From assembly GCA_951230915.1 (NCBI GenBank), contig OX579637.1, positions 8,742,001 through 8,806,000 on the forward strand: a stretch of DNA of 64,000 nucleotides, given 5' to 3'. Position 1 is the first letter of the stretch. Every line of letters begins with the position of its first letter. This stretch comes from Antitrichia curtipendula. Taxonomy: Eukaryota; Streptophyta; Bryopsida; Hypnales; Leucodontaceae. Positions 1,971-35,618 of the stretch are shown here, one piece after another. Position numbers and translations under genes: made by a program. The notes below the pieces were generated by a model. That model was given only the letters and a program-made list of their open reading frames with translations, was not told the origin of the DNA and did not search any database.

Positions 1971-3178
1971 GCGTTTTAGCGCGGCGAGCGCTAAATTGTA
2001 GTTTCACGTAGATTGTAATATACTACTCGGATGACGATGTGGTCTGCTTTTCAAACGGGCGACTCATGCTAATGATCCTATTTTTTTGGTGCGTTTGGAC
2101 ATTCGTCCTGGTTGTTACTTCCTACACGGTGGTGGATCTTAGTCATCTTCACTTATTGTGTCTGCCTGCTACACTTTAGCGCGGCTCGCACTAAAGCGTC
2201 TCCCACTTAACAATTCCAATGGACTCTTGGTACTGGCCCTTGGACACGGATGCTTTACTGTGTCTGCCTTCTGCACTTTAGCGCGGCTCGCGCTAAAGCG
2301 TCTCCCGCTTAGCAATTCCAATGGACTCTTGGTACTGGTGCTTGGACATGGATGCTTTACTGTGTCTGCCTTCTGCACTTTAGTGCGGCTCGCGCTAAAG
2401 CGTCTCACTCCTAGCAATTTATGCCAAAATTTTGTGGTGGTGCTCGTGTATGAAGGTTTTATTGTGTCTGCCTGCTGCACTTTAGCGCGGCTTGCGCTAA
2501 AGTGGCTACTATCAAGAGGCTCGTGTGCGCCTGGATACTGATCTGTGTGTTCTAGTTCACTATTGAATTTGTCTGGTGCACTTTAGCGCGGCGCGCGCTA
2601 AACTCTGTCCGGGCCAACGGATCCTGGTGACTTGGCACTGGTCATTGTGTACTGTTGTAGTAGTCATTCTGTCTTCTACATGTTTGCGCCTCTCGCGCAG
2701 AACTTTTTCTCTTGTGCAGAGGTATATCTCGATTGGCATTTTGGTACTAATAAACTACTGGGTTCATTGACTGCAATTTAGCGCGAGTTGCACTAAACTG
2801 TCTCCCTGTCGGTTGTGTCCGAGCTTCCGTAGTGGTGTTTTGTTAGTATTTAATATGGGGTTCATGGACTGCAATTTAGCGCGAGTCGCGCTAAACTGTC
2901 TCCCTGGCGTTGGTGTCTGGGCTTTCGTACTGGATTTTCGGTTGTTCATCCGCTACAGTTTAGCGCGAGTCGTGCTAAACTGTCTCCTAGGCGATGGAGT
3001 CCGGGCTTACGTACTTGGGTTTTGGTATTATTTTAATGCTAGGTTCATCGACTACAGTTTAGCTCGACTCGCGCTAAACTGTCCCCCCGACGTTGGTGTC
3101 CGGGCATGCGTACTTGGGCTTTGATAGTACTTAATATTGTGTTCATCGACTAAATTTAGCGCGACTCGGGCTAAACTG
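1971..3178. repeat. Array of about 12 TTTAGCGCGA-type palindromes, ~100-bp spacing
   Basis: Imperfect tandem units of about 97-101 bp each carry one palindrome whose half-site is TTTAGCGCGA (or a one-base variant) and its reverse complement TCGCGCTAAA, separated by one base. Positions are about 1974, 2172, 2275, 2376, 2478, 2579, 2682 (eroded), 2774, 2873, 2956, 3056 and 3152. Palindromes are much better conserved than the intervening spacers. The array lies inside the putative 5' leader intron of NGQHS-1 (acceptor at 1912). Translations of this array (repeated ARLALKRLP-like strings) are artefacts of the repeats. Confidence 0.85.
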
Positions 3179-4030
3179 TCTCCTTGTGAGCGGTGCTCGC
3201 GGGCATGCGTCCGAAGATTGTTTTGAAGATTAGGTTTAGGCTGTTTAGGTTCCGGAATTCATTTTTAAAATCCAGGGACTCCTTCCAGCAACATTGATTA
3301 CAAAATCAATGTGCATTGCAAGGGAATTGACGGTTCAGGTATAAATGTTCAGACAACGTCGGACAACTCAATGACACACTTTCGTTTTAGTTAGATTTAT
3401 AATTGCTACAGTGTTTTCTAATGCTTTCTATCGATAGTGGCACTATCATCTGAAGAAGCTACTGGGTTCAAATGAGAGCGGTTTTGAATTTGTCTTTAGA
3501 AAAAGCATGAAAAATATAATGCATAAGCACAGGTCGACAGAAGTTACCTGAGATTGAAGTGTTGATTTGGCCCTCGTTGGCCCTCACAAATTGCCTAATT
3601 GCAGAACTTGTTTTCACCTTCCGATGACCTGTTTGCAAATCCAACAATTGAACACTAAGACATTGAATTTGACAGTTTTGAAAGCCCTGACGAGGTCACC
3701 GTGAACAGCAACTTCTGTTGAACAGTGATTTTGAACAACGTGAGTCTACTTTCCGAAAGTCTTCAACTCAAGTTCATACAATTTGGCTGCTACTTAACAA
3801 AATGCTTTGCAGTATTTGCTGATTTGTCAAGACAAGATTACTTCTGAGAATCTGTCTACAGCCTAAGATAAGCAATGTGATGAAGAATTCATACATCAAA
3901 AAGAAAAAACGTGCACTGATTGACAAATTTCATGCACTTTCATTCAGACAAGCAACTCAGCAATGAACATCCAGTACAAGCAGATTCAGGTACAGGAATT
4001 GGAAATGTGCAAAGCAGATGTGAACATTTG
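3179..4030. other. No gene recognised
   Basis: AT-rich unique-looking sequence between the palindrome array and the duplicated leader modules. I see no homology to the other parts of the window and no convincing ORF; it would be leader-intron sequence if transcription of NGQHS-1 starts near 4.1-5.3 kb. Confidence 0.4.
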
Positions 4031-5360
4031 GTAGAGCTCCGATCACTCAAAAAACACCGCACCCTACCACCTTCCAAAAAACGTACATCTGTTGGAGCTC
4101 CTCTTCAACAATAGCCAAAAAAAATACAGGACCACACCCGAACACACCCGAGAATCCAAATTTCAAAGCATAAATGCGAATGCTTACCACGAAGCACTCT
4201 CGAAGCACGCTGTCGTCGTAGTGCAAGTTTTGTACGCTCCACGCTCCACGCACTTCCCAAAATTGCTCCAAGCAAGCTCCAGAATCAGTTGCTGATGCTG
4301 AACCCTAAACAACGCAGGAGACAAACTTTAGACGTGCACGACAATAAAAGCAAAAAATATCGTAAGATCCAAATTACCCTAAACCCACCACAAGAGGTCA
4401 ACGAGGACGCGCAAAAAAAAAGATACTAGTGGAGGTCGATGACGACCCTGCTTGAATCTACAGCAAGGTCGATCGTCACGCATCTGCTGGAGCTCTCTTC
4501 AGCAGAAACAAAGATAAAGAGCAGGACCACACCGAGCACAGGCAAGGATTCCAATTTCAAAACAAAAATGCGAATGCTTACCACAAAGCACTCTCAAAGC
4601 ACACTGTCGTTGTAGTGCAAGTTTTGTACGCTCCACGCTCCACGCACTTCCCAAAATTGCTCCGAGCAAGCTCCAAAATCAGTTGCTGATGCTGAACCCT
4701 AATCAACGCAAGAGACGAACTTTAGAACGCGTGAGCCGAATTACCCTAAACCCAACACAGGAGGTCGACGAGGACGCGTAAAAAAGAAGATAACGTAGGA
4801 GGTCGGCGAGGACCCTGCTCAAACCTACAGCGGGGACGAGAAGAAGAACAGGAGAAACAAGAAAAAACGAGAAAAAACGAGAAGAAGGAAACGACCACAC
4901 AAAAAATCTACATTTGAAAGAGACGAGAAGAAACAAAAAGAAGGATAGCAGAATCGAGAAGAAGGACAGGACCACACCCAAGAATCCACATTTCAAAGAA
5001 AAGGTCGAATGCTTACCCCGCAGCAATTTTGAACCCCGAATGCTTACCCCGAAGAAAAATTTCAAAGCTTACCCGAATCACGCTGTGCAATTGGAAGAAC
5101 AAAGACGCTCCACGCTCCACCCACTTGCGGAATCGCTGCAACCAAATCACGCTGTGCAGTTGGAGAAACGAACATGCTCTACGCTCCACCCACTTGCGAA
5201 ATCGCTCCACGCACATGCTCCGAGATAACTCGCAACTCCAATAGCGGACGAGCTCAAATTTGAAGAAATACAATTCAGAAAAGTGGGAGCCAAACCCTAG
5301 TGTGGAACGCCACCTCGTGTTTTTCCGATACCCTAATATCCTGATCTTCCTTGTCAATAC
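4030..5360 (-). repeat. Duplicated leader-exon modules upstream of NGQHS-1
   Basis: Two direct repeats, about 4030-4430 and 4430-4810, share long near-identical blocks (for example 4197-4310 against 4601-4710), and a more diverged third module follows at 4810-5360. On the reverse strand each module contains a splice-donor-like GTAAGCATTCG preceded by a purine/GC-rich exon-like stretch (4185, 4578, 5015 and 5047). This is consistent with alternative or duplicated non-coding first exons for NGQHS-1. Sequence shows the repeats and the donor motifs; use as leader exons is inferred from the equivalent layout upstream of the other copies. Confidence 0.5.
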
Positions 5361-5960
5361 CCGCTTGAGAATACCTTGACCGTACCTTCACAATACCTTG
5401 AACCCTACCGATATACCCTCTTAGCAATACCCTGATCCTACCCATATACCCGCTTGGTAATACCCTAAACCTACCCTATAAATATCCATCTTGCAATACT
5501 CTAAACCCTATTTTGCTAATACCCGCCTTGCAATACACCATTCCTACCGTGCCGATACCTTTCAATACCGTGGCCCTACTTTGTCAATATCCTTAAAAAA
5601 ACATACCAAAATCCATCGAAGAATACTCTACATTATAGTCCGCCATTGATTCCGCTTCTGCTTTTGGTAAATAAAAAACGGCTTGATTCATTTCTGCCAA
5701 ACAAGAAATGAAGAACATAATGAATACAGGAAACACACCTTGCTATACCCTAAACCCATATTTTTACTGTTCTCTTGCTATAATTAAAATCCGCCATGCA
5801 ATACCCTGGCATAGTGGCATTTGTGATGACTGCCTTCAAATACTATAGCCAATACCCATCTTACAATGTCGTGGGTGATACCTTCCTTGTTGTGGTTTAC
5901 ACCCTTTGCAATACCGTGGATGATACCTGCCTTGCAAATGGAACTGAAATCCATCTTGCA
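5320..5960. repeat. ATACCCT-rich degenerate tandem repeat
   Basis: Irregular repeats built on ATACCCT/CTTGCAATACCC, roughly 30-45 bp apart, between about 5325 and 5950. Telomere-like in base composition but not a TTTAGGG array. No coding content supported. Confidence 0.6.
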
Positions 5961-6474
5961 GTACTTGACTATTGTAACGTAGTTTCAAGTACCAATATGA
6001 TACTTGAAAATCGCCACACTAAACCGTCTATCTACCATGGTTGAGTTCTTGGAGGACACCAAAATCCAGTCTTCTAGATTGTAAGATGCTTCATTCCTAA
6101 AAATCTGATTTATGAATGCCAGAAAAAAAACACCGAAAATTGAATCAAACTAAATCTTTCATTATTAATACAAAGATATCTATAGTTTCTGAATGGAAAC
6201 AAATATTTTATTGTTGGGATGTGGTTTTTAATATCGTTGGTCAATATTTATGAAGGCCTAAATGTTATTCGTTCATTTGATATAAATAATTGTAACAACT
6301 CAATACATGTGGGTTTCACATAACATATACCAATCTACAACCCCCTATTACAGTTCAAAGTTCATATTTACGCATCTCTGCATTGTTTACCTTGACCCTT
6401 ACTCATATGCAAATTGTTGTGTTTTGCATACATAGGATAAGTCTCAATTATCTTGGCTCATTTAGTCTATTTTG
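5961..6474. other. No gene recognised
   Basis: AT-rich intergenic sequence with no feature I can name. Confidence 0.4.
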
Positions 6475-7062
6475 TTAACCCCTAAAGCCCCAAGGGTGTT
6501 TTCTGCCAAAAACCATTCAAAACTACCACTTCTGTTGTTTTCACTAAAAGAAATTAATTATTTTTTCTTTTTTGTAATTTAACCATAAGATCTTGTACTT
6601 ACCTTATCTGAGATAATGTAGTAAAAATTTCATCAAATTTGACCGTACGGATTGAAAGATATTAGCATTCAAAGTTGAACAAAAACTTTTTTTTTAAGAA
6701 GATGCTTAAATTGCCCAAAAAACTGAGATTGTCAGTAGCGTTCTCATCCCTAGTCCAAATAGAATGAACCAAATCTTCACGTATAGGTAAAAACACGATA
6801 TTTTAGGAAAAAAATCCAAAAAAATATATTTTGACTTCTTGTAATTTTTTTTAGACTGCCCACCAATCTCCATTTCTTGCTCATTGTACCATAACTTTTT
6901 CATCCGGCATCTGATTGAAACAAAAATTATATATCCACAAAGCTCTTGCAAAGCTACACAACCTCAAAAAAGCTCAAAAAATCTCACTTCAAATTGAGAT
7001 AGTAGGAACCTACCTGGACCCAAATTGTCCCCCAAGGGAACAAGCAGGGCTTTAGGGGTTAA
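6475..7062. mobile_element. 580-bp MITE flanked by TTAA, piggyBac-like ends
   Basis: Terminal inverted repeats CCCCTAAAGCCC at 6479-6490 and GGGCTTTAGGGG at 7047-7058, each directly flanked by TTAA (6475-6478 and 7059-7062). TTAA target duplication with CCC-starting ends is the signature of piggyBac-type cut-and-paste elements. The inside is AT-rich and non-coding, so this is a non-autonomous copy. An imperfect extension of the repeats (CCAAGGG on both sides) lies a few bases inward. Confidence 0.7.
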
Positions 7063-8670
7063 CATGGAACACTACATTCATGTTTTAAAATTTAGTAACT
7101 AAGAATAATGAGTATTGTTTAGGTAACAAGGATTAGAGTTTTCATTTGCATTTCTGTACCTCTTTTTGAAGAAATAAATACTATTTAATGGCTTGAAAAT
7201 TACTCTTTATGATGTAGGCAAAATAATAATAAAGACAACATTTTCTAATGATTATGTGTAATTAGTTGAAACTTTAAACCCTTCGCGGATATTGAGATCC
7301 CCTATTGAAGCCCGTTAAGAAGATTTATTCCCACCAAAAATGAATTGCATCAGTACACCTAAACCATAATCATTTTCTTTTGTTTAGAGTCGTCTGTGGA
7401 CTTTCCTAAAGTCCAGACATCAAAATATTCAAACTATTATGTATTATTGTAATTCTGTTGTTAAAAAATGATTGAAAAATATTGATTAAGGGACTTAATG
7501 ATTGAAAAATATTGATTATTTTTCAAACCTTTAATCAAAATTTTTGATTGAAAAATATCGATTTAGGGTAAATATGATTGAAAAATATTGATTTGTGCAT
7601 TCTATACAAATGGTTTGTTGAAGTATTGTAGGGTTCAGAATTTAGGATTTATGGTTTAGATTGTATTTGCTGGAGATGGTTCTAATTTCTTCATTACAGT
7701 ACTAACATGGTTTTTTGGAAAGAATGCAAGTTCTCTTGCGTAGGAAAAGGCCTACTTCAAGTACCAACAATTAGGTTTGTGCATGGATTCTCAAAATTTT
7801 GTGTATTTGCAACTTCTACATATTTTTTGTTTTCATTTTATTAATTTATTTCATGTGTTCTGTGCTTTGAAATTCTTAAGCTACAGCACATGGCATGTCA
7901 AAAAAGAAGTTGGTTTTTGTAAACAATTGCCTACAAGTAGGTTTTAATAAGAGTCCTCATGGATTTCAAGTGTTCATGTACTTTGTAAATTCTACATTTT
8001 TTTTTCCTCGCGTTTCTAAAACTCTCACAGAATTAAATGTTCTTGATTCAAACTTTACAATATATTCATGCTACTTTTTTAGGAATTGGGCTTTAATCTC
8101 TAATCAAGTTGTAAACATTTAAAATAGTTAAAGTCCATGATGTTACAAATTTAAATGTTTTTTCACAAATTCAATTGCAATATGAAAGCAAAGTCACTTA
8201 TTTGCTATACTTTATTTGATTGAGTATTAAGAGTTCATAGATTTGATCATGAAATGCATGAAGAAAAAACTGGACGAAGTTTTAAGAATATTACTACTTA
8301 CAATTCATGAAAATATAAAATCCAAGTGTGTATGCATGTTTGTAATAGTGAGTGTAAAAATAATTTATTCATTATTTTGGTGGATGTGATTATTTATATT
8401 CTATTCTACACAAGTGTCTTTAAAGTACAACGTAAAAGTACTCCCAATTTATTCTGCACTTGTTAATTTTGATGTCTCAAGAAAATTTTAATTATAATTC
8501 CACAGATTTGACCAAGAAAAATTTTGAACTTCATGCATGAATTTGCTTTTCTATGTGGTGTTAATTTTTTTCCTACACGTCAACCTCAAAAGAACAATGA
8601 ACAATGACTACTAATTTTCATTGGCATGTGATGAATTTGACCTCACTTTTAATATTGTCATGGATTATTA
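7063..8670. other. AT-rich non-coding stretch with a short dispersed repeat
   Basis: No gene is recognisable. Four copies of GATTGAAAAATAT[TC]GATT lie between about 7467 and 7595; otherwise unremarkable AT-rich DNA. Confidence 0.45.
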
Positions 8671-8671
8671 G

Positions 8672-8722
8672 TACCCTAAATCCTAAACCCTAAACCCTAA
8701 AACCCTAAACCCTAAACCCTGA
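8672..8722. repeat. Interstitial telomere-like repeat (CCCTAAA)n
   Basis: About six imperfect CCCTAAA units, the complement of the plant TTTAGGG telomere repeat. Too short and too internal to be a chromosome end. Confidence 0.8.
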
Positions 8723-9200
8723 CATTGAACTTCCAGAACCTAAACCTTGAATGTCATGACGGTAAAATATAATTCGAATACTGTAAAAAACAATTATTCA
8801 GAGTCATATTTTGGTTTGTAAAATATTTTTTCACTATAAAAAGAAGAAATTTCTTTGACGTATACACTATACAACGAGAAAAACAAATCGACTTTGAAAA
8901 GAGCCCAATGACAATCCAACAAAGCAAGAACCCTCTTAATATAAGCAAAAGTATGTACTGTGTGCTAATTAAGTATTCCAGAAAAGAAGTGCGGAAAAGG
9001 CGAATAAACCAGGATAAGGCTATAAATTAGAATTCTACCTGGCGTTGATGACATTTTTCCAATTGTAAGAGGACACGTCTATACACGGAAGTCAACAAGC
9101 TTTAATAAAGGGAATCCTTGAAAAGTTGCATGCCCCATAACATCCGTGAAGCTTGTGGTTTATTCTAGAATTAGATGGCGCTTCATAGTTTATAGCTGCC
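8723..9200. other. No gene recognised
   Basis: AT-rich sequence between the telomere-like tract and the leader of the gene at 10.9 kb. Promoter elements may lie here, but I cannot point to one. Confidence 0.3.
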
Positions 9201-9259
9201 CAAGGCATGAGGAATCCCGGGGCTCCTGAAATTAGAAGCATGGTTTTCAAACTCATGGC

Positions 9260-9486
9260 AGGGGTTGGTGCAATTTTATTCCCGCCAAGAATTCTTTTGT
9301 GCATCGTCAACCAAGATGCAACCATCTCTGTCCACCTTTCTCTTCAACCAAGTCGATTTCTATGCGCGTTGCTCTCTTTGTGTGCGTGTTGCACTTGCAT
9401 TGTTATTTTCTGTGGAGAATTCAGAAGTTTCTCTTCGAGATCGCATCATGACCGTGTAGTTTGTGTCCGCTTCCTTCCTTAAGGAG
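9260..9486 (+). other. Putative non-coding leader exon of the DUF7869-type gene
   Basis: Pyrimidine-rich, CG-containing stretch ending in AAGGAG followed by the donor GTACTT at 9487. The next good acceptor (TTGTTCAG, 10887-10894) sits five bases before the ATG at 10900. This gives the same leader exon / palindrome-bearing intron / ATG-at-exon-start layout as the NGQHS genes. The 5' end is not determined. Confidence 0.4.
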
Positions 9487-9880
9487 GTACTTCATCTCAT
9501 CTTGTTTCTGGTAATGTGCTTGTACCTTCTCAATCAGTATTAAAACTTGTATCACGAACTTGAAGGAAGTTTTACATGGATTTTCATTTGCTTCACAAGC
9601 GCAACTTATTGCGTAGGTATTTACTTGTCAAGTGTGCATTTCATGTTTCTTCTCTTCCAATGCACCAGATTTTCATTACGTAAGGTTGTTAACCAATTTA
9701 CAATGACAGACGTATGATACTGTCTGAGAGTGATGCCTTAATTTTTGGAATTACTAAAAATAGTCATATTTTCAGTTAAAAAATGAGTTAGTTCCGTAAA
9801 ATACGGGATTGTTGTGCGTATAAAGGGTATATAATTGAATGTTGCGACTTAGACATCTTGTAACTAGAGGCGCCCGATTG

Positions 9881-10715
9881 CACTTTAGTGCTAGTCGTGC
9901 TAAAGTGCATATGCCATGTATATAAAATGAGCGGGCTGCCATTTAGCGCTACTCTCGCTTAAATGAACATGCATGGCCTGTAAAATAACATCATTGCACT
10001 TTAGCGCGACTAGTGCTAAAGTGCACGTTTAGTGTATGTACAACCAACGACTGCCATTTAGCGCTAGTCGTGCTAAAATGCATATTAATTCACTGTGAAA
10101 TGAGGCAATTGCACTTTAGCGCTAGTCGCGCTAAAGTGCATATGCCATGTAATTAAAGTCGACGGGTTGCACTTTAGCGCTAGTCGCGCTAAAGTGCATA
10201 TGCCATGTAATTAAAGTCGACGGGTTGCACTTTAGCGCTAGTCGCGCTAAAGTGCATATGCCGTATATGTAAAGTTAAGGTGTTGCACTTTAGCGCGGCC
10301 AGCGCTAAAGTGCATATTCAATATTTGTAAAATGAGTGGGTTACAGTTTAGCGCGAGTCGCGCTAATCTGCATATGCAGTCACTGTAGAATGACCTAGTT
10401 GCACTTTAGAGCTAGTCTCGCTGTATCGCGAGTTCTCACCATTGAAGATCATCTACCGCACTATACCGCAACCAGCGCTGAAGTGCATATGTGCTCTACG
10501 TAAAATGAACTTATTTCACTTTGGTGATAGTCGGGGTAAACCTAATTTACTGTCTATGTAGTATGACCCAATTGCAGTTTAGTGCTAGTCGCGCTAAAAT
10601 GCATATGGCCTTTATAGATGATCACTTGATTGCACTCTAGCACTAGTTGCGCTAGAAGGAATATGTACTTGAATAATCATTAAATTGCACATTGGCCATA
10701 GTCATGCTATGGTGC
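9881..10715. repeat. Array of about 15 TTTAGCGCTA-type palindromes, ~58-bp spacing
   Basis: Tandem units of 57-60 bp each with a 21-bp palindrome: left half-site mostly TTTAGCGCTA, right half TCGCGCTAAA, one central G. The flanks continue the symmetry (GCAC...GTGC). Units around 10113-10240 are identical for two full periods; units after about 10390 are eroded. The array lies in the leader intron (9487-10894) of the downstream gene. It shares architecture with, but is distinct in half-site from, the array at 1971-3178. Confidence 0.88.
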
Positions 10716-10899
10716 ATACATCCTGTATATGTCCTGAATTTGAACTGCAATTTATGACTTCTATTAATTGCATAGAATTCATGATGAATATTTGATCAAC
10801 AGCATTTGAGAACTAATTAAGAGAAATGACGTGATTGTTATGGTTCATGTTCTTTAAGAGCCTGAAAGCTTCTTTGGTTTACTATGTTGTTCAGGTGTC

Positions 10900-11391
10900 A
10901 TGGATTCTATAGAGGATCCAGCCACGGACATGGACTTATCGGACAATGAGTTCCAGGTTCTTCAGCAAATGAATGCTGGTGTTCTTGACTGTGAAGGTAT
11001 TCCGTGTCGGCTGTGGAATACGAAGTGTGTTAAGCTGTATAACACTGAGGGCGTACTTGTTGGTGAAGGTACCTGCCACAACGTGAACTCCGATCTAGTT
11101 CTTGGTGCCAGTGGACCTCTCGGTGACACTCATGTATCAATGCACATTTCAGTGTCACATTCTGAAGTGGACCTTCCAGAGGAACATGTTTACTCACTGC
11201 TAGCTTGGCCTGTTCAACTGGTTCATTATCGTGGAGCAAGTCTGCATGATCATGAGGCTAGGGACAGTTTCAACCGCCTACAAGCATCACTTCTAAACCC
11301 GCCTTCAGCAACACCTGCAAGACCATATGCAAGTGCCATTAGAAACCCGCCTCGTGAGACTGCTATCAAAACAAAAGACCAGTCCTCCTAA
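10900..11391 (+). pseudogene. N-terminal part of transposon gene (DUF8039-like region)
   Basis: 163 codons from ATG, placed at the start of an exon after the 10894 acceptor. Residues 30-110 (GIPCRLW, VGEGTCHN, GPLGDTHVSMHI, LLAWPVQLV) resemble the small domain often found in plant transposon proteins that ends in AWP-x-x-LV. The reading ends at TAA 11389-11391 and the protein continues, disrupted, in the ORFs after 11490. The acidic N-terminus (DPATDMDLSD) may be functional or spurious. Homology is from pattern recognition only. Confidence 0.5.
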
Positions 11392-11489
11392 CGCAGGAGT
11401 CAATTAACTTGGTGTCCAACAAGGTGTGTTGCAACAAGAATTGTGTTCAGCCGTTTCCTAGGGAAAAAATTTGAGCTTTTTGAGAACGC

Positions 11490-13726
11490 ATGTATCGAAA
11501 TTCAACTTTCAAGCATAGAGCTTTCATGAAGACTGATGTGCACAGACATATTCATGAAGGTGCACGCCGAGGAAAGATGGTGACAATTGAAGAGATAAAT
11601 GTGTGTTTGCGCGCATGGATGCATATTGCGGGGGTTGCTGAGTCTACATTCTATCGCTACTTGAAATACATGAAGGATGAACGGGAAGCAAGGGATCACG
11701 GTAATACGGGACTACTGAAGCCTAGAGAGCATACCAAACAAGCCACAACTTCCTTGAAGTGCATCCTAGACAAGGAGGCCGATCACATGCCGCATTGTAC
11801 ACGGACTTTGAAGGAAGGTGACAAGATTGTGTCCAAGATTCTTCCGGCCTCATTTCAATGGAAGGATCAGCTGAAGAGACTTAATGAAACCAATGCGGCT
11901 TTTCAACTTTGAACTTGAGCAAGATTAGATCAACCAAGTTCCCAGAGTATGATGTGAAGAAGCCAGGAGATAATTTTGCTCGGTGCGCTACTTGTGACAA
12001 ATATAATGAGCTCATCAAGGGTGCTATCAGTGGATTTCAAACCGCTATGAAGTGGTGTAGGAGATTGAATAAGCATCTCACCATTGCTCGTGCCCATAGG
12101 GATGTGTATTACATTAACCGAGACTTGTCATTCAATTCTCCGCATGAATGTGTTACAATCATACACGACAAGATGGATCATGCAAAAACCGCTTGTCCGG
12201 TCTTTTCTCACAAGAATAAAGAACTTGATGGCCTGATGAAGCTACCCATTTTTGTAACGGGCATGATTGCACATGGTCATGCAGATGTGCGCTACACACA
12301 TTACGGCTTGGATGTCTTCTCGCATGACTCCAACTATACCATTGGTTCAATGGCAAAGTTGTTGCGAGATTTAGAGTTAGCATCGAAGTCTTCTTCTCGG
12401 GAGTTGTTCACGAATTCAAAGTCCTCAAACTTATTTAAGGCCGTGCTAGAGGGTACAGACATGTGCTATGGGTCGTTACTGCCGCCGCCAAATACCTTAA
12501 CTCCAGCCAGGCGGCTACTACCCATTTTAAACGTGCAAATGGACAATGCCACTGGAGACAATAAGAATAGATATGTTTTCTGCTTTTGGTCTCTACTTGT
12601 TGCAAACAAGATCTTCCGAGAAGTTTATGTGAACTTCATGATTGTGGGTCATACGCATGACAATATTGATGCACTATTTGGAAGATGGAGCATGGATTTG
12701 AAGAAGGAGAACTTCCCGACAATACTAACGCTAATGAAGTTATTCATGGATGTGGATTCCGTCCCTACCATCCTTCACCTTATTGAAGAAATGCTCGACT
12801 TCAAGGTTTTATAGCAGGGTCATTTGTAGATGGCGATGACATCCTTGTTGGGCACCCGAGACCACATCAATTGAAGTTCTATCTAGATTCAACGGGGTGC
12901 CCTGTCATGAAGTACAAAGTTTTTTGCATTGATGCCGACTGGTTAGGGGAAGACAGAAGAGGCATTAAGTTGTGGAAAGAAGATGCTGAAGGGCAAAGTT
13001 TGTGGCCACGCGGTGCACCTTTGGCTGTTCCGTTGAAGCCTATGAAAGGCTTGGAAGATATTATCAAAGGTATGACGGGGTTTGTGAAATATTGGGACAA
13101 TTTATGTAATGCAGACATCACCGGAGATTATCGAAGACGTTACAAGCATTTGGTGAAGTATTGGCGTGGCGTGAAGGTAGCGTTGATGGAACCGTTACCT
13201 ACCTTTCATGTTTTGAGGGACGGTTTTTGGCCAACTACACGTATTCAAGCAAGTGAAGTGGATGAATTAGACGATGACGGTGAGGAGCGTGAAGAGTTTG
13301 GGGAGGATGACCCATACGTTGGGCCATTGAGTGGTCGTCCAAATCCATCCTTCCAAGTGGCTCAAGATTTGTTCGAAGGCTATTTTGTTGCAGTTCAACC
13401 CACAGATGGTGACTCTCACCCAGTTTTGGATTGCAAGGGCATTGTCTGATCCAAACTCCAATCTAGAGAATCCGAATTGTGTTCTTATTCAATACTTCCG
13501 TCCAACATCAAGGAATCAGGATGTTCAAGATTTCTACACCGGATGGGACAGCGAAAGAGGTCTACGTTGGAAGGTTGATGAAATTGAACCTCCTGTTTGG
13601 CAACATACGGATGCTCTTATGACAGCGTGGAAGTCAAGGATCCAGAAAGACACTGTGGAGTGCATGATCAAGATCCCTGCTATACAAATTGAAGTCATCA
13701 ATCAGAGTTTGGTTTCATATAATTGA
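11490..13726 (+). pseudogene. DUF7869-type transposase-like protein, frameshifted
   Basis: A single protein can be followed across three frame changes (about 11905, 12808 and 13420). Segment 1 (11490-11912) has a helix-turn-helix-like region (VAESTFYRYLKYMK) and MPHCTRTLKEGDKI. Segment 2 (11909-12814) has FPEYDVKKPGDNFARCATCDKY, then the diagnostic VQMDNATGDNKNRYVF and FMIVGHTHDNIDALFGRW of the DUF7869 family, a plant and oomycete transposon-associated domain. Segment 3 (12871-13449) and segment 4 (13331-13726) complete an acidic C-terminus ending QSLVSYN. D/H residues of the QMDN and GHTHDNID motifs are intact. The frameshifts make this copy inactive. Confidence 0.75.
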
Positions 13727-14545
13727 GAAGCCATATCCACATATGTGTATACGTGGCATGTTTTGTTTTGTATTTAACATATTTATATTGTGTATAATAG
13801 ATGGAATTTATATATTGCAATAGATGGCATAGGTTTGAATTTTGTTGGTTTGGATTTATAGTTTGGTATTGCTTGTATGTTTTGAAATATATGTCTTGTT
13901 TTTATAAAACAAGAATATTCAAATTCGATTTTAATCTATTTCTTTATGTACTTTTAAGTTTAATTTTTTCTCTTTTTTCCATCATTTTACTTTATTTTTC
14001 GAGAGCATCTATGTTATAACATATATGAACATTAAATTTGAAAGTGTGATACAATTGAAAAAATGAGTAGTGGGTATAACCACTTTGTTTTTGATAACCA
14101 TGTTAAGCACTTGTCACATTCCAGATAGGGGAGTAGTTGGTTGTTACAACTTTCATAGTTGCTTGCATAAGTCATTAAGCAACACCAAGTCATGCATGTC
14201 TCTTAGTCGCTCATACAAATTGATTGGGAATCGACCTCGGACCGCCTAAATGGCTAAATGAGATAAATAATCCCTTACAGCCAACTGCAGAGCTCATGAC
14301 TTGCTGTTCCATATGGCATGATCTCTATGTATATTAATGAAAACATTGATCTCCGAATTTCAACTCAACGATTAAAGACTCTGTATGTCACTACACTCTC
14401 ATTTTAATGGAAATTGCACACAAAAACTAATAATTATATTATTTGTCAATCTAAATTATCTATAGAAATTCCATTTGTATTGATATTAAAATCGACAATA
14501 TAATTTTGGGAGGCTCCAATACTTTCAAAATTTTGAATATGATGT
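13727..14545. other. No gene recognised
   Basis: AT-rich gap between two convergent pseudogenes. The second exon expected downstream of NGQHS-2 (the RFSMIDV exon) is not visible here, so that copy is 3'-truncated. Confidence 0.45.
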
Positions 14546-14550
14546 TATAC

Positions 14551-15988
14551 CTTAAACATTGTTTTGTTCAATTTGTTGTCTGCGTTTTGTTTGGCATTGG
14601 ACTTCTTTCCAATCGGTGCAGCTTTTTTGGGATTTCTGGGTCTCCCCATAATTTCCCAGACTTTCTTTGCTTCGAGGATGTTAGTGGACCACGACGGCTT
14701 CATGGCAACGAAGTGATTCACTCAATTGTAGTACACGGAGATGGCACGAAGCTTTTCACCATCTGATGACCAGACCATGTAGCACTCCTATTGGTGGAAG
14801 TGCTTCACAATCTCTTCGTCTAGTCCCTTTGCTACCATCAGCTTACTCGCAGTTACACTGTGTTGGCCGTTTATAATGTAGAACTTTTTGTTCTTCAACA
14901 GTGGCCACTATTTGGGTGTGGGTTTCTCAGTCTGATCCACGGGCATTACACACAGTGTTTGTTTTGTGGACTTGTCAAGCATCTCCCACAGAAACATCAT
15001 GACATCCTTGGTCAATCTTTGTTCATGGCTACGAATGTTAAGGTTTGCAGGTGCCTCACTTAGTTGGTTGATGGATATTGTTTTCTTCTCCTCCCGGTTG
15101 AAGACGTATGCATCTGTGCAATTTTTCTAGTATGCTTTGTAAGCAGCTGTGGAAGCGTCATAATCATGTTTCCGCCTTGAGTCGTACGCCCTAGGTACAT
15201 CAATTATTGCGGAGACAAAGCTTTGTTCCCCAGCTGCAGATGCGCTTGCGTCCTTGTCATACGGGATGATCTCTAACAACAATGCCAAGTTGCTTTTCTT
15301 TCGGCTTGACAAGGTTGCACCTACTTGCTTGCTCCTTCTTGTCCCACGACTCTGTTGTATTTCTGGAGTTCCCATCGACCCCTACCCTTCTACTGCGCTC
15401 GGACTTTTGGTGGAGACCAACCTCAGAGTCATGTCCTTCTGTTTTGCTTGAAGTTTCGCCTTCAATACAGCAAAGTCGACAAAGAGAATCCTCAGCTTAG
15501 CGCACAAGCTCTTCCTGACTACTGTTCTCCCACTTGCCATTTTGAAGAAGCCAAGGTCAACTTTCTTCTCCAGTTCCGGAATCTCTGTTTGGTATTCTGC
15601 TGGTTCCATTGACCTGATGAAGTGCGAGATGTTGAACTCTACCTTCGAGGAGTCTAGAACCAGCGTGAAGTGATACTGATCTTCTTCTTGTAGTCCTGTT
15701 TGTGCTGTCTTGCAGTGAATTTTTATTGTTGGCCCCAGATCGTGGACACTTTCCTTGATTTCTTTGTCATAGGAGATCAGGAAGTACGGCTCGGTTTCAT
15801 TATACTTAATGGCGAAGCATATGATCTTCTTGAACGATATCATGTTCAGACTCCAGTACTGAACCTTGTTTGGGTTTTGGAAATCCCAGTACTCCCCTTC
15901 GCGGTTGAAGTCGTCTCCGTCCTCCTTGACATTGAAGTTTTCACACTTCTTGTAGAATGCCTCCAGCTTCGATATCTGGTTTTCCATC
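14551..15988 (-). pseudogene. NGQHS-2 exon 1 with five in-frame stops
   Basis: Reverse reading from ATG 15987 matches NGQHS-1 exon 1 end to end: MENQISKLE, EYWDFQNPNKVQYWSLNMI, DQYHFTL, NIRSHEQR, FYIINGQHSVTAS, CYMVW, SWSTNILEAKKVW. It stays in a single frame. The five stops are at 15384, 15129, 14910, 14790 and 14724 (first base on the reverse strand). Two replace a tryptophan conserved in the other copies (TGG to TAG; YKKFW and KW/TW-x-C) and one an Arg/Cys site (TGA). The acceptor before the ATG is CTGTAG|G. It ends at a donor-like GTATAA. No downstream exon was found. Confidence 0.8.
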
Positions 15989-17462
15989 CTACAGAACAAT
16001 GTTGACATGCGCTTGTTATATTCAAGTCAAGTCGAGTTGATTGTCGTGGGTCGATGACTTTGTCACGACAACGCATCATTCACGCAGTTTCTCTCTTTGC
16101 CTTTGTTGACCGTGTTATATTTTGTTTCTTCTGTGTGTATGTACTGCCAGGGACACGCGTTTTAGCTTGACTCGACCTAATCAAGATTTGTTCATACAAC
16201 TCAGTCTATAATTAGTAGGTTAATCGTTTGTATTCTCTCATTTGACTAGTTATGCTGTACATGTTTGGGGTGTTATATGATCTGATTGATTTCACTCTTT
16301 GTGTTCTACATATGTTGTGTTGTTTTAGATCGGGTCGACTTGATCTACCGATCCAGATCCTTCTCTTCTTTTCTTGTTTGTTCTAGATTGTTACCTGTCT
16401 TTTAGATCGAGTTGACCTAAATGTTGTCTAGCAGATCTACTTGGTTTTGCTCTCTTCCTAGAGCTGATTTGCTGCTTGATTATTCTGGTCGGATCAACCT
16501 GTATGCCTTGTTTCTCTGTTTACTTGCTCTGTTTTACTGTTTCAGGTCAATTTGACCTGAATTGGGAGGTGATGTGGGCTTCCGCTTTAGACACTGCAAA
16601 TATAGTTGGTTTCTTCTATCGTGTTTTGGTTTCTGATTATCACAACTGACGTCTTTTTAGGTTGGGTCGACCTGAATAAAATTATAATTACTTTCATTAT
16701 TTTATGCATTCCTGTGTTTACCTTAATAGTCAACCTGAACTGTAATCGATCTGAGCTGCGTATGATTTTTATTTTTACTAATCCCTGATCTAGATTTCTA
16801 GAGGTTCACCTAAATAAGACCCTACACTCTCACCCTAAACCCTAAGCGATCAGCAAGATCCTAAACCCTAAGCAAACAGCTGGTGCATACCTGCACAGAA
16901 GAAGGTTCCAATGTCCTTGATGTCGTTGATGAGGCGTACTAAAACCTGCACATTCGAAGCAATACAAGCTTTGAGTTCCCGTTATTTACAATGTGTTGTT
17001 GGACAGACAAAGAACAACTGAACTGTGTGCAAGTTTTAATGAAGAAGGAAAAACAATCCCTTAACAAAAACCACTGACCAAAATCATGAATCCACGGACT
17101 ACGAGCTTAATCAAATTCGATGCAGGTTTTAAAAAAATTAAAAACACAATGTTCAAAAGACACAACATTCAATGCTTTTTCCACTCCACCACTTGCACTG
17201 AGAACAATCTAAACCCGAAACTTTGCACTGAGACCAATGTAAACCAAAGACTATGCACTGAGAACAATCTAAACCAAAAAGCTGAATGCAGTTCGCAAGT
17301 TCTAAGAAAACACAAAACACATTCTTCACAAGGTTTAGGGTAAGCCAAAATTTGTGAATACAAAATCAAAAACTCTAAAATTGAGCGCAAGTGTATGACA
17401 ACAGAAAACAATTTGTAATTTACAAAAACTTGACCCCAAACCCAAAGAGTGAGATGCAATAC
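15989..17462 (-). other. Putative leader intron of NGQHS-2
   Basis: Bounded by acceptor CTGTAG at 15989 and a donor-like GTATTG at 17462. It contains the palindrome array 16159-16818, two CCCTAAACCCTAAG tracts (16838-16880) and, at 17180-17290, three repeats of about 36 bp based on TGCACTGAGA. The intron assignment is inferred from the parallel organisation of NGQHS-1 and NGQHS-3. Confidence 0.4.
16022..16818. repeat. Array of degenerate TTTTAGGTCGA-type palindromes
   Basis: About nine imperfect 21-23-bp palindromes with half-sites of the type TT[TC]AGGTCGA / TCGACCTGAA: near 16022, 16160, 16325, 16400, 16486, 16542, 16657, 16727 and 16797. Spacing is about 55-160 bp. The set is more eroded than those at 2-3 kb and 9.9-10.7 kb but has the same odd-centred geometry. 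Confidence 0.7.
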
Positions 17463-25173: not shown

Positions 25174-25211
25174 AATCTTTTAACTTAGTGTTTGTAGAGA
25201 GGCTCACATTT

Positions 25212-25224: not shown

Positions 25225-25784
25225 TGTCGTAGACCAAAATGTGGAGATTAGCCTATTTACTTAGAAAGATGGGGGAACGAGTTAGTATTGGTACATTTTT
25301 TTTGGTTTGTAGAGGTATAAATCAAGTATTTTATCAAGATTAACATTCCTTTATAATAGGTGTAGTAGTAGAGAGATAATAATGTTAACAGGAAGTTAAG
25401 ATTTCCTGTTTTTACCGGAAAGCGGAATCGGAAGAGGATCCGGATTAGTACCGGGAATATCTCAAAATGCTAAGATCAGATGCAGACACGTACCGGATGA
25501 GGCTGCGGGACCTATCGAAAGCCAGTGGAGCATTTCTTGGATCCAATGGAAATTAGGTATGACCGTTCAGCGGTCAGATCCTTCCAGGATGACGACGGAA
25601 ACGGGAAACCTAAACGGCTAGGAACCAAGTAGAGGAAGATGACCTAGAGGTCGGGACTTCCACTCTCCTTTCTTGTTTTAATGTTTGCAACATCCTTTGA
25701 GTGCTTAGAGTTGTTTGGGAGTGTGAAGGAGTGAGAGGAAAGCAAGTCCAGAGTTTCCGGATCCGGTAGAGAGGAAGGATCCAG

Positions 25785-26366: not shown

Positions 26367-26619
26367 CACTACTAGAAAAATCAGCGTCCAAATTGACAAG
26401 AAAGTGTTGATTTGGACGTGTCAACTTTTGTTAATTTAGACATGTTGATGTGGACATTGTCCAACAAGAATTTGTTGATTTTTTGATGGTTTGGACAAAA
26501 TCCAACAAAAATTTGTTGGATTGGAAAAAATTTCAACCAAAATTTGTTGATTTTTTTTAACAATTTCAAATTTTTTTAATCAACTACAATTTTTTTTAAA
26601 ATAATCGGCCAATCAAAAG

Positions 26620-26757
26620 CTGCCACGTGGCAATCCACACACAAACAAAGCATACGTAGCGGACTACCACGTAGGCAACGCCTACGTGGCAAACTGCCAT
26701 ATGATACTGCCTATGTGGCAGTCCGACACGTGGCAACCGCCGCATAGGCAAGTTGGT
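26620..26757. repeat. GCCACGT-rich cluster in CACTA-type element 1
   Basis: Many copies of [T]GCCACGTGG / CTACGTGGCA within about 130 bp, including G-box CACGTG cores, arranged as short inverted repeats. The same kind of cluster occurs in the element at 61769-62898 and in the small MITE at 58779-59059. Confidence 0.65.
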
Positions 26758-26825
26758 GCAATGGGGTTTGAACCTTGCACCCCTTGCCTAGGGGTACAAG
26801 GCTCTAACCATTGCACCACATGTAA
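26752..26825 (-). other. tRNA-like segment in CACTA-type element 1
   Basis: The reverse strand reads TGGTGCAATGGTTAGAGC, close to a tRNA D-arm/A box, and about 40 bp later GGTGCAAGGTTCAAACCCC, close to a T-arm/B box GGTTCRANNCC. Stem pairing for a full cloverleaf is incomplete, so this is not called a tRNA gene. A related segment lies in the second element. Confidence 0.4.
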
Positions 26826-26889
26826 GAACACTAGCCTCAAATAGAAACAAAAAATTATTTATTTTATTTTTTGAAATTTTTTTTCATTT

Positions 26890-27260
26890 GTTTTTTCAAC
26901 TCAGCCAACTTTGGGGGCTGTTTTCTCATAGTATCGTACCTTTTTTCAAAAAACTTTGAACCAATAATAGTTGTATAATCAAGTTAAATTTCATGTCCAA
27001 GAATCCGTTTTTGATTTGAAGTCTTCAATTAAAAGTTATGGACAAAATTCAGAGAAGGGTTGGAATGAATTTTTTTTTTTACATTTGTAAACAATCTCTC
27101 TGAATTTTGCGCATAAATTTCAATTGAAGACTTCAAATCACAAAAGGATTGTTGGAGATGAAAGTTAACTTGATTATCCAACTTTTCTTAGTTCAAAGTT
27201 TTTTGAAAAAAGGTACGGTAATATGTGAAACTAGTCTCCAAAGTCAGCTGAGTTGAAAAA
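26890..27260. repeat. Foldback of about 165-bp arms in CACTA-type element 1
   Basis: The left arm (about 26896-27060) and right arm (about 27095-27255) are imperfect inverted repeats: CAACTCAGC / GCTGAGTTG, AAAAAACTTTGAAC / GTTCAAAGTTTTTT, GATTTGAAGTCTTCAATT / AATTGAAGACTTCAAATC. Transcription would give a long hairpin. Confidence 0.75.
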
Positions 27261-29019
27261 ACACTGAATTGTGAATTACTAAGTTAATAGAAAATACTCC
27301 CATTGCATGTAGAATGTCAAACTTGGTGGTTTAATTATTTCCTGCATGAAATGTTAGTGATAAAAACTTCAATTTAATTTAAGATATTATGAATATTTGA
27401 CAAACATTTTACTAGGAGGTGATTTGGTCACAATTCATATTCAAGTTTTTTGTAATTTAGAACATATAGTTTGAAGAGCTCTACATTAGAATTTGAGAAT
27501 TCTTAATGTAGAATTTAAATATTTAAGAATTAAGAATTTGAATTTAAAAAATTTAAAATTTGAATTTATACCCATAAGAACAAAGTAGCCTTTTTTGACA
27601 ATGTAGCTAGTGTTTTTGGTCATGTATTTAGAAATTGAACTTCTGTTTGTTTGTTTTTTTAATTTTTTACACAACATGTGGTGAAGGGATAGTTTGAAGG
27701 ACTCACAATATTTATAACTTATAATTACATGATGAGAAAGTTATTGTATAATGTATAGGTTTTCTAGCTATGTGTGCATATAAGCCAAGTAGATCTAAAT
27801 GTACTTTTTAAATAAATAGGAATTTGAAATTGATTTTCTGAAATATTAATCTTGTGAAAAGTTTCAAATCATTCTATATAGATTAGGGAGGTGAAACTTA
27901 TGAATAATTTCAATTTTTAGTTTAAAGTAGAATCTCTACACTAAAGTAAACTTCAAAATTCTTTCTTGAATGCATTTTTAAATATTTTATAAAAAATAAT
28001 TAAAAAATAGGATGCAAATTGTTTATTACAACATGTACATTAATACATTACAACCATTGGATTTGGGAAATTTTAGTTTTATAACTAGAATTTTTTTCCA
28101 TTGAATATTGTAAATCATTCTCAATTTCTATCAACTTATTACTTTTTTCAAATATGAATATGAAATATTTTTTATTGCAATTTCTAATACAGATTTTCGA
28201 ACATATTTTTCCAGCATATGATGGGAAGTTGCAAATTGTAGAATTGATATATACATTAATTTTTGGATAAAATGTTGGAAAAATGAAATATAGTCATTTG
28301 GGTTGAATGAAACACTATTTAAAAAAAAAAATCCAAGCATAATGATCTTGCAATTGGTAAAGTTTTTATTTTACAATTTCAAGAGGGAAAATTAGGTCAA
28401 ATTGAGTAGAAGCTTGATCATCTAGTTAAATTTGTTGAAAAAAACAACAGAAATGAAGATTTCAGCCTTGCTTTGAAAGCTAATATTTAAAAGCAATTAT
28501 GGGCTTTAATATATGAAAGGATATGGAGTTTAATACTTCAAATATGAATCATTCTATTGAGTAGTTCAATTTGAATTTTGAACTACTCAAATTTGATTAT
28601 TATAAGGTTGGAAACTTTGATATAATCAAAGTATTTGAATCAAAGTTAAATTAGATTTTGAATTTAATTACAACTCCAATCAAATTCAAAATCTAATTGA
28701 AAAAAATACAATTCAAACTCAAAATTCATAATTTCCGAAAAATTCTTAAAGATTCCAAAAACAATTCCAAAAACAATCCAAAAACAATCCAAAAACATTC
28801 AACCAAAATCTGTTGATTTGGTCGTTGCACTATTTAAATGAACAAAAACTTGTTAAACCATTTTGTTAACATGTGCTCAAATCAACAAAAATTTGTTAAC
28901 CATTTTCTTAATTTGTGCTCAAATCAATAAAAAACTGTAAAAACGGTCAGTGCAGTACCCAAATCAACAAGTTTTTGTTGATTTTTTGTTGATTTGGATG
29001 TAATTTTCTAGTAGTGGAC

Positions 29020-30273: not shown

Positions 30274-30380
30274 CTAGCTTCAAGGGGAAAACTCCAACAC
30301 CATCAAAGGGTAAGACGGCAACAAAGGCAAAACCACCAGCAAGCAGGAAACAACCACTGAGGAGAGGATCAGTCAAATAG

Positions 30381-32817: not shown

Positions 32818-32821
32818 CTTT

Positions 32822-32838
32822 TGGCGCCGCTGTCGGGA
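32822..32838 (+). other. Primer-binding-site-like sequence
   Basis: TGGCGCCGCTGTCGGGA four bases after the LTR end. It closely resembles the TGGCGCCGTTGCCGGGG-type sites of Tat/Athila-like plant gypsy elements, which start with TGG pairing to the tRNA CCA end. Confidence 0.7.
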
Positions 32839-33360
32839 TTCTGATAGTTTGTTACGAGTTTTTGGATTAAATCCGGACGGTAAGCAGAAAGTCAAAAGGA
32901 CGGATTCACATCTAGATATCAATGAAGTAGAGATTGAGAGGGTAGTAAGTCTTGACTTCATGAGTAGACCACAAGGAAGAATTCCGGTAGGACGATGTTC
33001 CACACATTTAGACGACGCTGCTAGACAAGTAGTGGTACAAGAAATTTTGACGTTTGATTTAGAAGAAGATTTGGTAGTTATCCCTGACGTAGGAGCAAAA
33101 CCAGAGAATATTCCGGAACTAGTTGCAAATCCGGAAGAAGTCACAGAACCGGAACAAGCTGTAGAGGAACCGGAAAGAGAGGTTTCACCGGAAATTTCTG
33201 AGGAAGATTCCTCCTTTGAAGAAGCAATAATGGTAACTACTACACGACTCCGGTACAGTAGAATCCGCGGAGATGGCACCAAAGATGTAGATGACCGGAT
33301 GGGAGAATTTGAGGCCACCGCTGCTGCAAATCAAGAGGGGTCAGACCGCAAATACAGAAA
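32839..33360 (+). pseudogene. Truncated second gypsy internal region: leader and Gag N-terminus
   Basis: A reading through 32759-33424 contains an acidic leader (EEDLVVIPDVGAKPENIPELV) and then MVTTTRLRYSRIRGDGTKDVDDRMGEFEATAAANQE at about 33231, homologous to the Gag start at 19577 (APSTRLKYNRFKGDGAGDVDDW). Similarity stops near 33345, where unrelated sequence begins. This is the 5' stump of a second element sharing the 25225-32817 LTR. Confidence 0.7.
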
Positions 33361-33399
33361 GGCCGGGTTTATGCAACAGCCGGGTATGAACACCAGATC

Positions 33400-33817
33400 G
33401 GGTATACGCAACAAGCAGGTATAAACACACAGTCTTGGGTATACGCAAACAGGACCGAGTATCTCCAGGTTACAGAGCTTTAGAGTTTGGCGTACGTTCG
33501 TTTTTCTCCTTGCGCGCTGCTTCTCCCTCACCTCGCGTGTTGCTTCTTCGTGCATCTTCGTTGTTTCTCCATTGGTTTCTTCGTTGGTTTCTCCGTTGCT
33601 TCTCCGCTGCTTCTCTGTGCTTCTCCGCTGGTTTCAATGTCGTGCTCTCCCCACTGCGGTTTTGCTTCTGGAGTCGTGGTCGGTGGCGAGTTCCCTCCTG
33701 CGGATGGACGGTTTGGGAGGCAAGTGTTTCTTGAGGCAGGCGTTGCTTCAGGCGGGCGTCGCTTGAGGAAGGCATTGCGTGTACCAGGAATGCAAGAGGA
33801 GTTGCAATCTGAGGAAG
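33400..33817 (+). other. Putative non-coding leader exon of NGQHS-3
   Basis: CG-richer, pyrimidine-rich (TTCTCCG repeats) stretch ending GAGGAAG before a strong donor GTGAGT (33818-33823). Mirrors the leader exons proposed for NGQHS-1 and -2. Overlapping ORFs are low-complexity and unsupported. The boundary with the retroelement remnant is near 33.35 kb. Confidence 0.4.
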
Positions 33818-35618
33818 GTGAGTTTGAATTTGCTTGTGTCGATGTTGGGATCAGCTCTAGGGTTTTAGGATCGGCTTCAATTTTTTTTATTATTCTAGTT
33901 GTTGTAGTTCTTGTTGGGCTTAGGATTCTTGTGCGCTTAGTATGAATGCGCTTAGTATGAATGTTTCGTGCGCTTCTGGTTTCGTGCGCTTTTGGTTTCG
34001 TGCGCTTAGTATGAATGCTTTTGGTTTCATCGAATTCTTCAGGTTTCATGCGCTTCTTGTTTCGTGCGGTTAGTTTGAATCCTTCTTGTTTCATTGAATT
34101 CTTTTGGTTTTGTGCACCTTATTTCACTTACCAGGCGTTGGATTTTGCTTGTGTGACTTCAGCTGTATTCTTCAGTATTCATCAAATTCTTCAGGTTTCG
34201 TGCGTTTAGTATAAATCCTTCTTGTTTCATTGAATTCTTCTGGTTTCGTGCACCTTGTTTCACTTACTGGGCGTTGGATTTTGCTTGTGTGAATTCAACT
34301 GTATTCTTGAGTATAGATATTAAGTTCTTGTTATGATTATGTAGTTCTATTCTTAAGTATAGATATCAAGTTCCAGACTTGTTTTTTGAAATTTTCTTTA
34401 GAATTTGTTAATGAGGATTGTTTTGGCATTCATTAGTACATATTGATTTCATTCATTTCCATTTCAGTACCTCATTTCAGTACTTCATTGTGGCATTCAT
34501 TCTCATTTCAGTACTTGTTGATTGCATTAGCGTATGTTGTTTCAATTCGGAATGAATTCATTAGTGTACATTGTTTCTTGCAAGTGCTGAATTCCTGGCA
34601 AATGTTGAGAATCTTGCAGGATTCGGGAGTTGGTGCATCTTTAGCGCTTTCTAAGTCTCTCAAGGTTGTATCTTGTTAAGTTTCAGGTTAGTTTCTAGTT
34701 CTATTATGCACTATATGGGTTAGGACTTAGGATCTGGGCTTAGGATTCAGGTTACAGGCTTTAGGGTGTTATTTTAGGGTCCTCGTCTCACGGCTTAGGA
34801 TTTAGGATCTAGAAAATATCCAAGCTACTTGAATCCTCTGCTGTAACAATGGCATCAATATAATATGAGGCAGGTATTATCCGGATATCATAGGGTCTCA
34901 CCGAGCATCAGCATCGAAAACACTATCCTCGGGTCCTTCTCCGCCATGAAGCTAAGTGCAATTCAAGTCGACTCGACCTGAATTGCACACATGCCAAAAC
35001 AAGATAAGCATATCACTTAATTATATAAAGTCGCACCCCACTTGACCATGAAGTAGATGACAAATGGACACAAAACAGTAGGCAATTCAGGTTGAGTCGA
35101 TCTAAATACACAAAACAAAAGTATAATACGTAGAAGTCCTAGACACAATGTATTTAAATAACAAGTAGTACTAAACTCCACGAGAACAAGAGAAAAGCAA
35201 ATCCACATGATAAGAAATACTAAACATAACAACTACAAAAGCCTGAGGATTATGAGGAAACTAGAGTACAACATCTATATGAAAATCTCGAGACACAGAC
35301 AAGCATGTCAGCTTAGATCGAGTCGAGCCAAACTGACGTGGTTACTATGTACAAAACTCAAGAGCGGTACAACAATCGGGCAAAAAGCCATGGGAACAAT
35401 GGAATTGTAAGAACAACTAAAGTTGGAACAACAAATACATAGTAATTCACAGAAGCCCGATTAGCTCGAGTCGAGCTAATATGACCATCGATCATTAGGA
35501 ACAATGGAATTGTAGGAAAAACTAAAGCAGGAACGACAAACACATAGTAATGCACAAAAGCCTGATTAGCTCGAGTCGAGCTAATATGACCATTGCTCAC
35601 TATCTTCTTAACCTACAG
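33818..35618 (+). other. Putative leader intron of NGQHS-3
   Basis: Donor GTGAGT at 33818, acceptor TTCTTAACCTACAG ending at 35618, one base before the ATG context GATGG. Holds degenerate repeats of TTTCGTGCGCTT / TTTCATTGAATTCTT (33950-34260), a TTAGG-rich tract (34715-34810) and the palindromes at 34961-35585. Confidence 0.5.
34961..35585. repeat. TTAGCTCGA-type palindromes in NGQHS-3 leader intron
   Basis: Five odd-centred palindromes: 34961-34983 (ATTCAAGTCGA half), 35085-35107, 35311-35333, 35460-35481 and 35565-35585. The last two are perfect (ATTAGCTCGA, centre G, TCGAGCTAAT) and lie in tandem units of about 105 bp. Geometry equals that of the other arrays but half-sites differ in the middle positions. 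Confidence 0.82.

Follow-up and report, generated by a model that had tools for sequence, protein, structure and literature searches.

Clade-specific palindromes in a two-gene transposon group of the moss Antitrichia curtipendula: candidate recognition sites for the transposon's own factor

Introduction

Among the described systems closest to the one reported here are the VANDAL transposons, which are MULEs with companion proteins called VANC, and bacterial ParB-parS, in which the parS sites are palindromic. In the VANC study, VANC21 motifs occupy companion-gene introns and also DNA upstream of the transposase gene, and VANC relatives whose motifs differ demethylate separate transposon families (PMC5735166). 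Here we describe a comparable arrangement in a 64-kb window of the moss Antitrichia curtipendula (assembly GCA_951230915.1, contig OX579637.1, positions 8,742,001 to 8,806,000), in which a large transposon, TE-A, carries arrays of 21-bp palindromes beside two genes, one encoding a large protein that we call NGQHS and the other a probable transposase with a DUF7869 domain. Coordinates are those of the window unless marked, and comparisons were made across the 400-Mb genome (303 contigs). We propose, with a probability of about 0.6, that the palindromes are recognition sites read by the transposon's own factor for self-specific regulation or anti-silencing.

As in VANDAL/VANC (PMC5735166), the transposon encodes a companion protein, family-specific motif arrays lie both within the introns of that protein's gene and upstream of the transposase gene, and arrays are gained and lost through tandem duplication; a further likeness is that motif type goes with the family to which the protein belongs. 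The parts differ. The VANC motif is a 9-mer (PMC5735166), whereas the moss motif is a 21-bp palindrome. VANC has the domains DUF1985/DUF287, which were absent from the families inspected for 66 NGQHS exon 1 proteins (25 of 29) and for 80 exon 2 proteins (24), as well as from the homologous contigs L030 and L031 (see below), and the NGQHS system is a terminal inverted repeat (TIR) element with DUF7869 and 4-bp target site duplications (TSDs). VANC binding and demethylation have been demonstrated by experiment (PMC5735166), whereas binding and silencing effects of NGQHS are predictions from sequence.

Bacterial ParB-parS shares with the moss system a ParB/Srx-like fold, at least putatively, and clustered palindromic sites; NGQHS differs in having INGQHS for GERRxRA (PMC7333895), in lacking a clear helix-turn-helix, in the methyltransferase-fold domain that follows, and in belonging to a eukaryotic transposon. 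Unlike the beta-class DNA amino-methyltransferases, including bdelloid N4CMT, NGQHS has no DPPY motif and an altered FxGxG. The fungal TET/JBP transposons are likewise DNA transposons with a DNA-modification-related companion gene and a proposed escape from silencing, but they use another enzyme fold, and the abstract describing them mentions no self-specific site arrays (PMC12730594). Overall, the moss system resembles self-specific transposon factors such as VANC in kind and is assembled from unrelated protein parts. A literature search, with most subscription papers outside its coverage, found no description of this NGQHS/palindrome system and no paper on DUF7869 elements.

Palindrome spelling and NGQHS clade

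The window contains 28 odd-centred 21-bp palindromes, counting those with no more than one mismatch, compared with 1 to 4 in each of 10 Markov-resampled windows, and by our own count 17 of the 28 have the form described in the original prediction, an earlier reading of the window's sequence. All four arrays claimed there are present (site starts 1975-3155, 9884-10636, 16161-16656, and 34962-35565), far above resampled chance, but sites at 430, 37116, 59987-61161, and 64144 had been missed. The NGQHS-1 leader array (1975..3175) consists of 11 palindromes of the form TTTAGCGCG-NNN-CGCGCTAAA, mostly spaced 97-102 bp apart. The array upstream of the DUF7869 gene (9884..10656) has a 58-bp period and contains TTTAGCGC-TAGTC-GCGCTAAA in both orientations, with TGCAC/GTGCA as outer bases; what had been taken for a separate half-site, GCGC-TA, is its asymmetric centre, TAGTC/GACTA. 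Leader palindromes of NGQHS-2 (16161..16676) are of the GGTC/GCTC type, and those of NGQHS-3 (34962..35585), previously listed as GCTC only, are a mixture of GGTC and GCTC sites.

Across the genome, half-site spelling goes with NGQHS clade. A genome search with NGQHS, in which 92 of 857 candidates were scored, gave 93 matches, and percent identities serve here as clade labels. Beyond the first four elements, 18 GCGC clusters were examined, 17 of them with coding sequence (NGQHS in 14, DUF7869 in 3) and one, L034, with a leader only. Among 16 leaders of diverse copies, 15 hold two to seven sites that fit the described form with no more than two mismatches, where 0.2-0.7 palindromes of any kind would be expected; the leader of L050 has no clear site of this form. 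Position 3 of the half-site is T in 301/310 cases in the near clade (18 leaders), where positions 6-7 are CG in 265/310, and it is C in 48/54 in the 58-62% clade (5 leaders), where positions 6-7 are CG in 51/54. The 43-48% clade, taken together with NGQHS-2 and NGQHS-3 (10 leaders), has T at position 7 in 94/94, preceded by C (43), G (42), or A (9), and [G/C]TCGA site types lie upstream of the 43-48% copies. Two contigs filed under a Synechococcales metagenome-assembled genome, a cyanobacterial desert-crust bin (L030 and L031; CADCWO010000243 and CADCWO010000269), have C at position 3 and CT at positions 6-7 in 32/32. The central GA-N-TC that had been thought common to all sites is constrained in L030/L031 and in the 43-48% clade but loose in the TE-A NGQHS leader (GGCTC, GCGCG, etc.), where the half-sites are fixed over ~9 bp. 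The period of the DUF7869 array corresponds to ~5.5 helical turns, compared with ~100 bp in near-clade NGQHS leaders and in L051, from the 44% clade; palindrome spacing may matter.

Exact matches divide in the same manner. Thirty exact TTTAGCGCGA palindromes were listed genome-wide, 20 of which lie upstream of a scored NGQHS copy, and all 20 of those copies have at least 75% identity. For TTCAGCGCGA, the check covered all 47 palindromes and placed 35 upstream of 58-67% copies, two upstream of a 70% copy, and 10 upstream of no scored copy; thus 37/37 assignable sites are at 58-70% copies, and none of the 47 lies upstream of a copy with at least 75% identity. The 70% copy carries both spellings. 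In trees, the GCGC rows fall in one clade (10/10 for exon 1 and 9/9 for exon 2). The original prediction held that the sites look diversifying and self-specific, and type indeed tracks NGQHS clade without exception among the assignable sites of these two spellings, and cleanly by leader; the random assortment of types among protein clades that it had named as its refutation did not occur. Its assignment of one half-site type to each gene has to be given up: type belongs to the element or clade, and a single transposon with a single GCGC type houses both NGQHS-1 and the DUF7869 gene.

The palindromes are kept while their spacers get replaced, as had also been claimed. In six copies, only 0-10% of the masked leader spacers can be aligned to those of TE-A copy E2, and 6-9 palindromes are retained per copy in the same leaders. 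At five orthologous TE-A sites (four present in 4 copies, one in 3), 532/567 pair-columns are identical inside the palindromes and 5418/6477 in the 120-bp flanks, the palindromes being the better conserved despite their CpG richness. Across seven arrays, the identity between units is 0.83-0.92 in the 21-bp core, a figure inflated by the loose pattern with which units were picked, versus 0.45-0.60 in the 25 bp on each side.

TE-A and its transposon group

The palindromes occupy noncoding DNA, almost certainly within a transposon bounded by TIRs and TSDs. TE-A is ~19.5 kb in total; its right 14.5 kb fills 1..14546 of the window, and its left end lies ~4.94 kb to the left of it, at C5:8737056 (C5 being the 37-Mb contig that holds the window). 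Both ends are common to three other copies, whose end segments are 90-93% identical, and element lengths in the four copies compared are ~18.1-22.2 kb. The 25-bp TIR, AACATCATATTCAAAATTTTGGGAG, is exact at the left end, has two changes in the right copy (14522-14546), and is present with few mismatches in 4/4 TE-A copies, in which alone TIRs were examined. TSDs of 4 bp flank 4/4 copies and differ between them (ATAC, AATT, CTGG, TTTG), the one in the window being ATAC at 14547-14550.

TE-A contains NGQHS-1 on the minus strand and the DUF7869 gene on the plus strand. The latter (10900..13726; PF25273, E = 1.6e-36; frame interrupted in this copy) has 408 homologues, with one named transposase among 120 listed, and is predicted to encode the probable transposase; DUF7869 is the sole candidate here for a DDE/D transposase domain. 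Genome-wide, a divergently oriented DUF7869 match lies within 30 kb of 50/90 NGQHS copies (median, 12.2 kb) and one in another orientation near 3/90, compared with a mean of 2.3 and a maximum of 6 divergent pairs when positions were shuffled. Because divergent pairing occurs in all NGQHS identity classes (16/29 at 80-100%, 2/6 at 64-79%, 7/12 at 55-63%, and 25/43 at 40-54%), this is a two-gene transposon group rather than a single element. Contig C5 holds 56/90 NGQHS copies and 69/128 DUF7869 matches, and is possibly a sex chromosome or rich in repeats for another reason.

Each TE-A copy has 19-29 sites. They lie in the NGQHS leader, in intron 1 (430..450 in NGQHS-1, a few nucleotides past the 5' splice site and found in 4/4 copies), in intron 2, which has two, behind exon 3, where a single GCTC-type site is identical in 4/4 copies and probably falls in intron 3, and in the DUF7869 upstream array; copy E3 is without the NGQHS leader array. 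The earlier picture of arrays confined to leader introns was too narrow, since L030 and L031 likewise have sites in introns 1 and 2. Read by eye, introns 1 and 2 of copy E2 have GT-AG borders, some sites in these introns begin ~8-26 nt behind the 5' splice site, and an acceptor-like sequence stands a few bases before the ATG in the NGQHS leader. L030 and L031 contain NGQHS homologues with clear GT-AG introns, on which ground both contigs are eukaryotic; they probably come from another moss contaminating the desert-crust bin. They share the layout, with TTCAGCTCGA, and have eight sites each (TTCAGCTCGANTCGAGCTGAA and variants), all in introns except that in L031 sites also stand before exon 1. 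Exon 1 of these genes does not begin with an ATG and would therefore be preceded by an upstream exon, which would make the stretch with the leader sites a true intron. These homologues, together with the acceptor-like sequence beside the ATG, suggest that the NGQHS leader is an intron.

The NGQHS protein

NGQHS-1 exon 1 (522..1907, minus strand; ATG 1907-1905, 460-aa open frame) encodes the N-terminal region with the candidate ParB/Srx-like domain. It has 65 homologues, the one organism-named homologue coming from Physcomitrium patens, and it matched no Pfam family. In the fold comparison of exon 1, ParB-type rows rank first and KorB, a ParB-fold repressor, is among the matches, giving modest support for a ParB/Srx-like fold. 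In our reading of the alignment, INGQHS stands where ParB has GERRxRA, with H in 40/45 rows that have a letter. The lone helix-turn-helix candidate is a weak PF09039 match (E = 0.086) in L031 exon 2; the fold comparison barely covers the helical first half of exon 2.

Exon 2 starts in the window (1..300, minus strand) and continues to the left of it, and its frame, broken in this copy, is open in 2/3 other TE-A copies. It matches the fold of beta-class DNA amino-methyltransferases, but the catalytic motifs DPPY/SPPW and FxGxG are not present in the 80 members compared. At the DPPY position there is D in 79/80, F or L in 74/80, and R in 77/80, and the third glycine of FxGxG is K in 66/69 members with a letter; because both motifs are replaced, the domain is probably noncatalytic. 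A later exon probably encodes a NIF-phosphatase-like domain. A NIF/FCP1-like domain with DLNG replacing DxD was seen in two lineages (L030:5170-6021 and TE-A to the left of the window) and is probably a dead phosphatase.

A putative reader and its alternatives

It is very probable that the palindromes are double-stranded DNA sites bound by a protein, and NGQHS is the likelier candidate for their reader. We propose that in each element, with its two divergent genes for the probable DUF7869 transposase and the large NGQHS, the palindromes would be bound by an NGQHS dimer of the same element, that selection would keep protein and palindromes matched, and that binding would mark the leader and introns of that same element and the DNA upstream of its transposase gene, leading to self-specific activation or protection from host silencing. 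This suggests that each transposon would recognize only its own kind. Such an outcome is favored because the site layout is like that of VANC21 and because VANC relatives demethylate different families. More speculatively, the ParB-like domain might load at the palindromes and spread along the element. Clamp loading and spreading would account for the reach of a few sites over a 20-kb element, but we regard this step as doubtful.

Several observations weigh against these proposals. GERRxRA is unconserved in NGQHS, which tells against spreading; sites with changes on both sides occur no more often than expected (3 versus 3.27); and CpG transitions make up 40/45 half-site changes at positions 6-7. 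Copies within a clade are also related by descent, so that few independent events lie behind the match of type to clade; the informative point is that almost every site in an array keeps the clade spelling though the remaining array has been replaced.

By analogy with VANC, the odds that NGQHS counters silencing, as opposed to regulating itself, are about even. In plain autoregulation, NGQHS would repress or activate its own and the DUF7869 promoters and have no silencing role, and both the upstream sites of the two genes and the appearance of the repressor KorB among the fold matches accord with this. However, sites also occupy coding introns 1 and 2 of TE-A, L030, and L031, and the number per TE-A copy is more than a simple operator needs, so that autoregulation alone is less likely than not, though a close rival. 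It is improbable that the reader is instead the DUF7869 protein, with the palindromes as internal or subterminal transposase sites required for transposition. The densest array does stand upstream of the gene for this probable transposase, and since DUF7869 pairs with NGQHS in every identity class, its clades would track the sites too. Yet the TE-A sites nearest to the element ends are ~2.6 kb and ~3.9 kb away and thus not subterminal, most sites are in the NGQHS leader, introns, or neighborhood, and DUF7869 copies paired with 43-62% NGQHS copies are, by eye, ~70-77% identical to the query, so that NGQHS varies more between copies with different sites, as expected of the component that sets specificity.

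That the palindromes act in pre-mRNA, as hairpins for splicing control or as a small-RNA source, is very unlikely. Their place in introns or a putative leader, in some cases just past a 5' splice site, would suit hairpins, but in L030/L031 and the 43-48% clade constraint extends to the central bases, which a hairpin would leave unpaired, GACTC and GAGTC serve as centres near-equally (GAGCC and GGCTC less evenly), and a hairpin would not need arrays of about ten sites at near-constant spacing. Least credible is binding by a host factor, such as a silencing or zinc-finger repressor, for although host adaptation could also give clade-specific spelling, and host methylation of the sites is plausible in view of the CpG decay, host-targeted sites should disappear rather than persist through spacer replacement.

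Other features of the window

NGQHS-2 exon 1 (14550..15987, minus strand) belongs to an apparently older element. TE-A seems to have inserted in intron 1 of this gene, because an exon 2 of the same type continues past the TE-A left end on the same strand; the insertion point (14546 / about -4944) is near one of NGQHS-2's own palindromes. NGQHS-3 exon 1 (35620..37066, plus strand; ATG 35620) has a broken frame and is followed by a palindrome in intron 1 (37116..37136); remains of a hAT-type transposase (DUF659, Dimer_Tnp_hAT) lie at 38096-40810, behind the interrupted gene. Pieces of a fourth NGQHS gene (58500..61181, plus strand; matches 58500-58778 and 59029-59970) are accompanied by GCTC-type palindromes at 59987, 60089, and 61161; the site at 64144 lies in the right flank. 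That flank (L012) also contains a second DUF7869 match (66139-66933) and a TE-A-like terminal repeat at 65927. Elsewhere in the window are a MITE-like inverted repeat (26889-27263; 167-nt arms, 87% complementary, 41 nt apart) and, at 43561-46014, an open frame of 817 aa whose RING-type zinc finger scores just under the Pfam cut-off.

Conclusions

In its boldest form, which we consider rather unlikely, the system would be a moss counterpart of ParB-parS: clade-specific NGQHS dimers would load and spread to shield or activate their own element, the dead methyltransferase and phosphatase folds would serve as chromatin-binding modules, and co-diversification of palindromes and protein would yield mutually blind lineages. 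If self-specific reading by NGQHS is true, this would be a second, independently built system, after VANC, by which transposons tell self from nonself through DNA spelling, one based on a ParB-like fold and found in a lineage distant from Arabidopsis. DUF7869 elements gain a context, and NGQHS proteins could, if the proposal is true, serve as sequence-specific chromatin-changing tools. With many clades in one genome, the co-diversification of protein and sites is directly testable in this moss.

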